A DNA stretch of 64,000 nt from Paenibacillus aurantius (lineage in GTDB: Bacteria > Bacillota > Bacilli > Paenibacillales > NBRC-103111). Positions within the stretch are counted from its first letter, which is position 1; each line of letters starts with the position of its first letter. Below the pieces are notes generated by a model that worked only from the letters and a program-made list of their open reading frames with translations, did not search any database and was not told the DNA's origin. The position numbers were made by a program, and so were the translations under genes. The DNA lies in assembly GCF_032268605.1 (NCBI RefSeq), contig NZ_CP130318.1:2576001-2640000 (forward strand). The letters are read 5' to 3'. Positions 2 through 33,432 of the stretch are shown here, in pieces.

Positions 2-283
2 CCCCCGGTCAAACCGAACCTGACAGGCTTTATAGGAACCCTTGGATCCGATCCCGGCCGGCGTCAGTACCAATTCAATGAAATGTGTGAGTTGGCGGAT
101 CTTATGAAGAAAGTGACCGAAAAAGAAAACCATCACCTTCCGGTGGAGAGGATTCTGGAAGACCGGATCAACGAGCTTCTGGATCTGCTTCTGCTCGCCC
201 AGTCTTTGTCCGATCAAGCATGGGCCGAAGATATCCGCGGAAGACTTTCGCAAATTTCGAGCCATCATCCGGCCAAAGGATGA
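2..283 (+). CDS. 3' end of an unrecognised gene
   Basis: The reading frame is open from the left edge of the window to a TGA at 281-283, so this is the C-terminal part (about 93 residues) of a gene that begins outside. A methionine at 83 is internal and has no ribosome site. The visible part has a Gly/Pro-rich start and then a charged, leucine-rich, probably helical tail (ILEDRINELLDLLLLAQ). The tail loosely recalls the short IDEAL helix of Bacilli, but I cannot assign a family. A terminator follows directly. Confidence 0.5.
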   Translation, partial: PPVKPNLTGFIGTLGSDPGRRQYQFNEMCELADLMKKVTEKENHHLPVERILEDRINELLDLLLLAQSLSDQAWAEDIRGRLSQISSHHPAKG

Positions 284-306
284 ACAGAATCGCTCTTTTT
301 CTACCC

Positions 307-30660: not shown

Positions 30661-31521
30661 ATGACGAACCCAAGAGCTGATTTACATACCCATACGAAGG
30701 CTTCCGACGGCCTTCATTCTCCTGCGGAGAACGTAAGAATGGCCAAAGAGAACGGACTGGCCGGTGTGGCGATCACCGATCACGATACGGTAGCCGGTAT
30801 TCCCGAGGCCATGGAAGAAGGAAATCGCCTGGGCATTACGGTGATCCCCGGCGTCGAGATCAGCACCGCTGCGGGCGGGCAGGATATCCACGTCCTGGGC
30901 TACTTTATGAATACGGAAGATCCCGTCTTTCTCGAACGGCTGAAGAGCCTGCGGGACGTCCGGGAGAACCGCAACCGGCTCTTAATCGAGCGGCTTCGCG
31001 AGCTGGGCGTGGACATTACCATGGAAGCGGTAATCGCGAACATGTCCAAGGAGCTTAAGCCGGATGAAACCGTGGGACGGCCGCATTTTGCCGAATTTCT
31101 CACGGCCCGCGGGTATGCGTCCGACATGAAGGATGCGTTTGACCGGTACCTGGGCAAAGACGGGGCCGCCTACATAAGTCCTATGCGCATTCCTCCGTCC
31201 GAGGCGGTACGCTGGATCCATGAAGCGGGCGGCTGTGCCGTCCTGGCCCATCCGGGCTTGTACGGTCAGGATGACCTCATTCCCGAGCTCGCCCAGGCGG
31301 GATTGGACGGACTGGAAGTGTTCCATTCCGACCACTCGGCCGAAGACGAAGAAAGATATGCCGGGTTGGCGAATCGTCATCATTTGTTCGTTACCGGCGG
31401 GTCCGATTTTCACGGCTCCCGGGGCGGCAGCGTATTTCATGGACCAATCGGTTCCCGCAGCATACCTATAAAGGGTATCGAAACTATGAAAAAGAGGAGC
31501 CACTTCTATGAAAATTCGTAA
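30661..31521 (+). CDS. PHP-domain phosphoesterase
   Basis: 286-residue polymerase-and-histidinol-phosphatase fold, similar to YciV/TrpH-type enzymes that hydrolyse 3',5'-nucleoside bisphosphates or RNA 5' ends. Metal motifs: DLHTHTKASDG, ITDHDTV, PGVEIS, HPG (AVLAHPGLYG), HSDH and GSDFHG. AAGGAG precedes the ATG. The last 14 bases overlap galU, so translation of the two is probably coupled. Confidence 0.87.
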   Translation: MTNPRADLHTHTKASDGLHSPAENVRMAKENGLAGVAITDHDTVAGIPEAMEEGNRLGITVIPGVEISTAAGGQDIHVLGYFMNTEDPVFLERLKSLRDVRENRNRLLIERLRELGVDITMEAVIANMSKELKPDETVGRPHFAEFLTARGYASDMKDAFDRYLGKDGAAYISPMRIPPSEAVRWIHEAGGCAVLAHPGLYGQDDLIPELAQAGLDGLEVFHSDHSAEDEERYAGLANRHHLFVTGGSDFHGSRGGSVFHGPIGSRSIPIKGIETMKKRSHFYENS

Positions 31522-32368
31522 AGCCATCATTCCGGCAGCCGGCCTCGGCACCCGTTTCCTGCCTGCCACCAAGGCACAGCCGAAAGAAATGCTTCCGATC
31601 GTGGACAAACCGGCGATCCAATATATTGTCGAGGAAGCGATAGAGTCCGGGGTGGAGGACATCATTATTGTTACCGGCCGCAACAAGCGGGCGATTGAGG
31701 ATCATTTTGACAAGAATGTTGAGCTGGAGACCATGCTCGAAGAAAAGGGCAGCCGGGAGCTGCTTCAGATCGTTCAGACGGTGTCCAATCTGGTGGACGT
31801 CCATTACATCCGGCAGAAGCAGCCGCTCGGGCTCGGACATGCCGTTTACTGCGCCCGCAAGTTCATCGGGGAGGAGCCATTCGCCCTGCTGCTCGGGGAT
31901 GATATCATCGACTCCAAGCCTCCGTGTCTGAAGCAGATGATCGATCTTTATGAGCAGGCGTCGACCTCGGTCATCGCCGTTCAGGAGGTTCCCTGGGAAG
32001 ATGTGAACAAATACGGCATCATCTCGTTGTCGCAGGACAACCGGATCGGGGATTTGATCGAGAAGCCGGAGCGCGAATCGGCTCCGTCCAACCTTGCGGT
32101 GATCGGACGCTATGTGATCGAGCCTGAGATTTTCTCCATTCTGGAGAAGCAGGAGCCCGGCCGCGGCGGGGAAATCCAGCTGACGGACGCCCTCCGCGTG
32201 ATGAACCGGAACAAGCCGATGGCCGCTTATTTGCAGCAGGGTCGGCGGTTTGACGTGGGGGATAAGCAGGGCTACATCGAGGCGACGATTGAGTTTGCCC
32301 TGGCCCGTCCCGAGCTCCAAGGGCATTTGAAGGAGTATTTGCGCCAATTGGTTCAGTCCTGGGAGTAA
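31508..32368 (+). CDS. galU: UTP-glucose-1-phosphate uridylyltransferase
   Basis: Makes UDP-glucose for glycolipids, teichoic-acid glucosylation and exopolysaccharide. Motifs: PAAGLGTRFLPATKAQPKEMLP (nucleotide and metal loop), LGDDIID, and the EIQLTDALR sequence. 286 residues, the same type as Bacillus GtaB. Its product is the donor for the glycosyltransferase at the right edge of the window. Ribosome site AGAGGAG inside the PHP gene. Confidence 0.93.
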   Translation: MKIRKAIIPAAGLGTRFLPATKAQPKEMLPIVDKPAIQYIVEEAIESGVEDIIIVTGRNKRAIEDHFDKNVELETMLEEKGSRELLQIVQTVSNLVDVHYIRQKQPLGLGHAVYCARKFIGEEPFALLLGDDIIDSKPPCLKQMIDLYEQASTSVIAVQEVPWEDVNKYGIISLSQDNRIGDLIEKPERESAPSNLAVIGRYVIEPEIFSILEKQEPGRGGEIQLTDALRVMNRNKPMAAYLQQGRRFDVGDKQGYIEATIEFALARPELQGHLKEYLRQLVQSWE

Positions 32369-32376
32369 CGATTCAG

Positions 32377-32392
32377 TTGTATAATCTTTGTA
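32377..32392. promoter_or_regulatory. -10 element overlapped by two 11-bp-spaced TnTACA repeats
   Basis: On the + strand TATAAT (32380-32385) is a perfect -10. On the minus strand the same bases read TTTACA and TATACA with first T to first T exactly 11 bp, matching the TnTACA repeat and 11-bp spacing of the Thermus CarH operator as I recall it. A third, degenerate copy (ACTATA) lies 11 bp further at 32399-32405. Confidence 0.5.
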
Positions 32393-32461
32393 AATGGTTT
32401 ATAGTTCTGGTAGGGCCATTCTGCGATGGTTCCATAGTCACGTTTATGGGGGTGTCCTACC

Positions 32462-33385
32462 GTGAGAAGATTATATACCATCAAAGAAGCAGCACTTAGA
32501 ACGGGACTCTCCACCCAATTGATCCGCAAATGGGAGGAGCGGTACGAAGCCGTTATTCCTTCGCGCTTTCCGAACGGCTACCGGGGCTACACTCAGGAGA
32601 ATATAGATACGCTGCTTTGGCTGAAGAAGAAAGCGGATGAAGGCATTCCGATCGGGATGGCGGTCCAGGAGCACCGGCTGATGGCGGAGAGACCTGACCC
32701 GTCCGAGATCAAATCCTCCGGTGAAGCACCGGGAGAGGATTATGTCGGGAGCCTGCTCCAAAGCTTTCTTAACTTGGATGCCTATGCCGCCCAGCATCTT
32801 TTTGACCGGATGCTTTCCCGCCATCATATGGATTACGTTCTGCTGGAGGTTCTCCAGCCCGTCCTGGTGGAGCTCGGGAAGCGCTGGGAGAGCGGGGAGA
32901 TTTCCGAGTTTCAGGAGCATTTCGGGAGCCATTTTGTAAGGGACCGTCTCCTTGCCCTGAAGAACATGTATCGCTCTCCGGTAGACGGGCCCTTGCTCGT
33001 CACCTCGTGCTCCCCGAATGAGCGGCATGAGCTGGGCGTGCTGATTCTTGTCTATTTCGCCGCCCAAAGCGGCTTTCGGATCGTTCATCTCGGCACCTCG
33101 CCATCGGAGAAAGGAATTGTGGACTGTCTGCACCGATTCAAGCCGGCCGCCTTTGCTTTCTCCTCTTCCTCGAGAATGCTGCTTGCGGAAGCCGAGTCGT
33201 TCTACCGCGAGCTCGACAGGCTCATCGAAGAGAACGGGTATCCCACGAAGGTGGTCGTAGGCGGCTCCGTTGTTCGGGAAGACGGCACCATGCCGGGGAC
33301 CAAGCACGTTCATATGCTGACCGGAGACGCCAGAGTCGCGATAGAGAAGATGAGAAACCTCATCCGGAATCCGGCACTCCATTGA
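32462..33385 (+). CDS. CarH-like MerR-family regulator with cobalamin-binding domain
   Basis: 307 residues: MerR winged helix (YTIKEAALRTGLSTQLIRKWEERY, 1-70), a four-helix B12-cap domain (about 95-165) and a B12-binding Rossmann domain (175-300). E187-R-H189-E-L-G192 is the ExHxxG lower-ligand motif; S234 and GG (267-268) continue the B12 signature. W142 with E152-H153 reproduces the W-x9-EH motif of light-sensing CarH proteins. The residue after Trp, which is the light-state His ligand in Thermus CarH, is Glu143 here. Predicted to bind adenosylcobalamin, tetramerise in the dark and repress, and release DNA in light. Ends at its own terminator. Confidence 0.8.
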   Translation: MRRLYTIKEAALRTGLSTQLIRKWEERYEAVIPSRFPNGYRGYTQENIDTLLWLKKKADEGIPIGMAVQEHRLMAERPDPSEIKSSGEAPGEDYVGSLLQSFLNLDAYAAQHLFDRMLSRHHMDYVLLEVLQPVLVELGKRWESGEISEFQEHFGSHFVRDRLLALKNMYRSPVDGPLLVTSCSPNERHELGVLILVYFAAQSGFRIVHLGTSPSEKGIVDCLHRFKPAAFAFSSSSRMLLAEAESFYRELDRLIEENGYPTKVVVGGSVVREDGTMPGTKHVHMLTGDARVAIEKMRNLIRNPALH

Positions 33386-33400
33386 ATAGAACGAAACAAA

Positions 33401-33432
33401 AAAACTCACCGGGCCTCAGGCCGGTGAGTTTT
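33401..33432. terminator. Bidirectional terminator, CarH-like gene / rqcH
   Basis: 12-bp stem AAAACTCACCGG/CCGGTGAGTTTT with loop GCCTCAGG, between convergent genes; it includes the rqcH stop. Confidence 0.8.

Follow-up and report, generated by a model that had tools for sequence, protein, structure and literature searches.

Does a CarH-type regulator that lies away from carotenoid genes sense light, and which genes does it control? To our knowledge, CarH proteins have been described almost exclusively as repressors that act locally on carotenoid clusters. The question is raised by carH2, a gene in a stretch of 64,000 nt from Paenibacillus aurantius (GCF_032268605.1, NZ_CP130318.1 positions 2,576,001-2,640,000), referred to here as the window. 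We compared this genome (G000) with those of 200 relatives, giving a set of 201. We consider it probable that CarH2 is a class I CarH/LitR-type AdoCbl photoreceptor, both repressor and autorepressor, which belongs to a distinct Paenibacillaceae clade and controls remote crt and chemoreceptor/DICT genes.

Table 1. Position of carH2, its protein domains and its predicted control elements (nucleotide positions are those of the window; domains are given in residues of CarH2).
Feature	Position	Strand	Remarks	Evidence
galU-like gene	31508..32368	+	Directly upstream of carH2; conserved neighbourhood, not part of the regulator	
Candidate operator repeat 1, TTGTATAATCT	32377..32387	+	-35 element is its first six bases, TTGTAT (32377-32382)	1.61 bits/column
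Candidate operator repeat 2, TTGTAAATGGT	32388..32398	+	Within the 17-bp promoter spacer	1.56 bits
Degenerate third repeat	32399-32409		Holds the -10 element	
-10 element, TATAGT	32400..32405	+	Conserved position 17 bp after TTGTAT	TATAAT in most orthologues
carH2 gene	32462..33385	+	GTG start, 307 aa	Pfam, PDB sequence match, AlphaFold model, alignments
MerR DNA-binding domain	residues 5-66			
Four-helix cap	residues 98-166		W142-x9-E152-H153	
B12-binding Rossmann domain	residues about 178-302		E187-x-H189-xx-G192	
Bidirectional terminator-like hairpin	33401..33432	.	Between carH2 and the convergent rqcH-like gene	Terminator scan

An earlier note on this DNA had read the gene as encoding a MerR domain, a helical cap and a B12 domain, and Pfam, PDB and fold comparisons all confirm this order, which is that of CarH and class I LitR. 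The B12-binding_2 (3.5e-11) and MerR_1 (3.5e-9) matches lie above their cut-offs; B12-binding (6.6e-7) falls slightly under its gathering score, and the match to the Rossmann fold is clear. Among solved structures, Thermus CarH is the nearest both by sequence (E about 3e-28) and by fold. The AlphaFold model of CarH2 (pLDDT 86) matches 5c8d, 5c8e, 5c8f and 8c3x, with E about 1e-17 to the dark, DNA-bound and light-exposed forms of Thermus thermophilus CarH (TtCarH), and its isolated cobalamin-binding domain superimposes on that of TtCarH with a TM of 0.8-0.85. CarH2 thus shares domain order, fold, Wx9EH and ExHxxG with Thermus CarH/LitR (5c8d, 5c8e, 5c8f, 3whp), from which it differs in sequence (about 31% identity) and in three replacements, His132 to Glu, Asp201 to Ser and Gly160 to Arg. 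A B12 cap followed by a Rossmann photosensory domain is also found in the Chloracidobacterium MerR-family B12 protein (8jbs) and the stand-alone cobalamin-binding structures 8j2w and 8j2x, although 8jbs is only about 22% identical to CarH2 over the B12 domains.

The residues expected to hold the cofactor are in place. Trp142, Glu152, His153, Glu187, His189 and Gly192 align with W131, E141, H142, E175, H177 and G180 of TtCarH, so that Wx9EH is intact, and nearly all of about 30 CarH2 orthologues retain this motif and ExHxxG, both named correctly in the earlier note. Of the longer B12 motif ExHxxG...SxT/V...GG, CarH2 has the first part and the final G267-G268; S-S-S stands in place of SxT/V, and the distance to GG exceeds the canonical 22-27, both minor departures. 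The TtCarH-like fold and the conservation of the pocket motifs support the CarH-type identity that had been proposed.

Orthologues of CarH2 were found in 18 of the 201 genomes, and all 18 carriers encode a PduO-type cob(I)alamin adenosyltransferase. We had arranged the homologues as one family along a ladder of identity; this arrangement was abandoned, as the tree and the linkage to crt genes split them into two clades. The carotenoid-linked Paenibacillus CarH form a separate clade (support 100/99), about 30% identical to CarH2, and lie inside crt clusters, whereas carH2 sits in a housekeeping neighbourhood that is mostly conserved in fourteen named loci (LysR, PHP phosphoesterase, galU, carH2, rqcH, cation ATPase, dapF, metH/metF). 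The two clades share the pocket motifs, a Glu after the Trp and the repeat motif at crtN. P. aurantius itself has a second CarH (G000:C1:4551936-4552820) inside a carotenoid cluster about 1.9 Mb away, and a carotenoid-type CarH accompanies CarH2 in 3/18 carriers (G000, G014 and G007). A third CarH-like gene in G014 (L082 1501, G014:C4:110037) has an exact copy of the motif described below at its own start.

Other B12-binding proteins were noticed along the way. In G057 (L278 2255-7361) and G006 (L279 2411-7507) a stand-alone B12-binding protein with Wx9EH adjoins CarH2, and a CheB-CheR-PAS-histidine kinase fusion also lies directly beside it. Elsewhere in the P. aurantius genome, two stand-alone B12-binding proteins carrying Wx9EH and ExHxxG are each directly followed by a histidine kinase (L003 1090-2166, then 2188 onward, at G000:C1 about 4636629; L004 925-2121, then 2157 onward, at G000:C1 about 1512216), and these pairs are candidate B12/light two-component systems.

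Upstream of carH2 the cores TGTATA (32378-32383) and TGTAAA (32389-32394) lie exactly 11 bp apart and read TATACA and TTTACA on the other strand. The earlier note's two TnTACA motifs at 11-bp spacing are borne out, and the pair is unique: TGTANA-N5-TGTANA occurs once in the 64-kb window, against 0.01 expected. The same note had placed the repeats over the only good -10. This needs correction, as the repeats overlie the -35 and the spacer and the conserved -10 follows them. The TATAAT within repeat 1 (32379-32384) was rejected as a -10; the orthologues have TATAAG or TACAAC there, and it is a local accident. Seventeen orthologous promoters align as TTGTAYAAGCT, then TTGTAAATGGT, then TTATAAT, such that repeat 1 starts with the -35, repeat 2 takes up the 17-bp spacer and the -10 comes in third place. 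Over these promoters the -10 carries 1.37 bits/column, next to the values for the repeats in Table 1, and the flanks carry 0.19 (5') and 0.40.

Conservation of the repeats in relatives had been set beforehand as a test that could refute the reading. They are kept in 17 of the 18 CarH2 genomes of the set, apart from one sub-branch, and are as conserved as the promoter hexamers. Spacer conservation is not expected of a plain promoter; the spacer is conserved here, and we therefore take repeats 1 and 2 (32377-32398) as an operator and a candidate CarH2 site, an assignment that the alignments support. Their conservation before orthologous carH2 genes likewise supports the autoregulation suggested earlier. 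As at Thermus CarH operators, the repeats are direct, 11 bp long, have a TGTnnA core and overlap the promoter; the outer T of nAnnTnnACAn is displaced by one base. The locus differs from that of Thermus in having two clear repeats with a degenerate third and in lying away from crt and photolyase genes. This promoter escaped both a general repeat search and a sigma-70 scan on account of its short repeats and weak -35. The operator is absent upstream of carH2 in one sub-branch (L039-L046) and in G131. In the sub-branch carH2 lies directly behind the PHP gene and has lost its own promoter region, and a genome-wide search in this branch gave matches near background except for a few strong sites (IDI-2-like, HemAT, PAS-MCP), with little enrichment of the motif in most of its members.

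The genome was scanned for further repeats, as the earlier note had proposed. The motif TTGTANANNNTTTGTANA with at most 1 mismatch has 12 matches in the P. aurantius genome, where the reversed control has 1, and two copies lie in front of crtN in the cluster of the second CarH. The statement that no carotenoid gene is near carH2 holds locally and fails genome-wide, given that distant crt cluster with its own CarH. Six crtN-positive genomes have CarH2 as their only CarH (G006, G025, G042, G057, G089, G104), and in all six the crt promoter region has one or two copies of the motif, with one or two mismatches in G025 and G042. The motif is also present at the crt promoter region of P. aurantius and of 5/6 genomes with a canonical CarH only. 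In crtN-positive genomes without any CarH it was found at crt in 0/12, one two-mismatch match being within chance (CarH2-only versus no CarH, Fisher P = 5e-5). The strongest evidence that CarH2 recognises the motif is this pattern, 6/6 against 0/12, and CarH2 seems to regulate crt where it is the sole CarH. The targets had been taken as unknown in the earlier note; the comparison now predicts crt genes and chemoreceptor genes.

Several further matches were recorded. The motif points to two further isoprenoid-type candidates, namely a second CrtI-like oxidase in G057 and G006 and, in G205, an FMN-dependent IDI-2-like enzyme. A similar 11-bp motif between TetR and MMPL genes in three genomes (L062 6048 in G000, L070 1501 in G019, L182 1540 in G014) may be a TetR operator and was left uncounted.

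A three-gene operon encoding an MCP signalling protein, a DICT-domain protein and an EamA-like transporter is present in 3/201 genomes (G000, G006, G014), all of them CarH2 carriers, and an exact copy of the motif lies at its promoter in each of the three. The motif also lies before a Cache-MCP in G089, as four tandem repeats, a membrane MCP in G104, a PAS-MCP in G201 and a protoglobin-MCP of the HemAT type in G205. With 7-33 MCP genes per genome in the genomes counted, about 0.07 MCP coincidences would be expected among the exact sites and 3 independent ones were seen (P about 5e-5, a rough value because the choice of sites and the gene frequency were tallied by hand with the sites already in view). 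The operon of P. aurantius lies at L061 5592-8341 (G000:C1 about 6078591); the longest ORF there begins inside the motif, which makes a downstream TTG after AAAGGAGG the probable true start. We know of no chemoreceptor targets of Bacillus megaterium CarH, and within the collection of papers searched we found no relevant one that links CarH to chemotaxis or deals with Paenibacillus CarH. To our minds the odds are about even that the crt-unlinked clade acts in trans and regulates photoprotection as well as taxis in response to light. Such a regulator would repress chemoreceptor genes in the dark (the MCP/DICT/EamA operon and the PAS-MCP, Cache-MCP, membrane MCP and HemAT genes), so that light and B12 status would reset the chemosensory repertoire.

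In P. aurantius, either of the two CarH proteins could read the MCP/DICT and crt sites. CarH2 might then be a relic in this genome that targets only itself, with both sets of sites belonging to the carotenoid-linked protein: the two CarH types would read one motif, and the crt cluster has a CarH of its own. We think this unlikely, as CarH2 is intact and its operator conserved, and as G006, in which CarH2 is the only CarH, has the same MCP/DICT and crt sites.

A second question is whether CarH2 responds to light at all. In many CarH proteins, though not in all, the residue after the Trp is a His that becomes the upper ligand after photolysis. CarH2 has Glu143 at this position, aligned with H132 of TtCarH. 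The earlier note had identified the residue correctly. It is not peculiar to this protein: nearly all members of both clades have Glu. The Glu is a Paenibacillaceae lineage trait, not one that defines CarH membership. Two residues of the TtCarH interface, Gly160 and Asp201, are also replaced in CarH2 (Arg171 and Ser213), and the oligomer state may therefore differ. In one study the H132A variant of TtCarH mostly stayed tetrameric in the light (PMC10442372), so light release from CarH2 could be weak. With His132 replaced, CarH2 could be a sensor of AdoCbl rather than of light, reporting the coenzyme B12 of the cell and repressing its targets when B12 is plentiful, with photolysis incidental. 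We regard this as distinctly improbable. The Wx9EH cap is strongly conserved, which speaks for a continuing role of the adenosyl group; the motif stands at carotenoid genes, which serve photoprotection; and the carotenoid-linked CarH share the Glu.

The repeats might also be the box of another regulator, such as PhoP (TTHACA with an 11-bp period), or merely a conserved promoter. Pho boxes share the 11-bp periodicity, overlap the search pattern and contaminate lax motif scans; the scan also returned pstS, ppk and phoP-like promoters, and repeat 2 varies among orthologues (TTTACA, TTAACA, TTCACA). We left these matches out of the CarH targets, as they are most likely Pho boxes of TTGTAAA-type 11-bp repeats (L087, L174, L207, L187, L199, L214 and L090). 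For the carH2 repeats themselves this origin is very unlikely: repeat 1 (TATACA/TGTACA) is not a Pho box, its form recurs at crt genes solely where the genome has a CarH, and the conserved spacer is not expected of a plain promoter.

That CarH2 is B12-independent like myxobacterial CarA, its domain an oligomerisation scaffold only, might be read from its weak full-length match to NCBIfam NF052513 TransRegCarH (124 bits against a cut-off of 400), but is extremely improbable, as CarA keeps the B12 motif and lacks the Trp of Wx9EH and its neighbours (PMC9304148), whereas CarH2 keeps Trp142 with the rest of the motif, His189 and Gly192. The cut-off was dropped as an argument against CarH membership; the model is narrow, since the crt-linked CarH of the same genome also falls short (158 bits). 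Possible B12-independent derivatives were seen elsewhere, with Leu for the Trp (L045 7992-8960) or without the whole Wx9EH (L021, in G131).

Returning to CarH2 as an AdoCbl photoreceptor, a mechanism can be drawn by analogy with TtCarH and B. megaterium CarH (PMC8156234), from which we infer AdoCbl binding, light release and repression rather than activation. The B. (Priestia) megaterium CarH/LitR is, by its description, a Bacillales counterpart, an AdoCbl light repressor of carotenoid genes with tandem 11-bp repeats (PMC8156234), reportedly four in number, and with crt targets. In the dark, AdoCbl would sit between the helical cap and the Rossmann domain of CarH2, with His189 as lower ligand of the cobalt and Trp142, Glu152 and His153 capping the adenosyl group. 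The AdoCbl-bound oligomer would bind the tandem repeats, occlude the -35 and the spacer, and so repress carH2. Blue or green light would cleave the Co-C bond, the oligomer would leave the DNA and transcription would start. Remote control would extend to carotenoid genes where CarH2 is the sole CarH and to chemoreceptor/DICT signalling genes.

The CarH2 clade is chromosomally fixed and crt-unlinked, appears autoregulatory and, it seems, governs crt clusters at a distance where these have no CarH of their own. Its members are natural Glu-for-His132 variants for probing the role of the post-photolysis ligand, and the compact operator/promoter of carH2 could serve optogenetics in Bacillales. The chemoreceptor and DICT-domain targets, if true, would tie B12 photochemistry to bacterial behaviour, and light and B12 may then govern the movement of CarH2 bacteria besides their self-protection.
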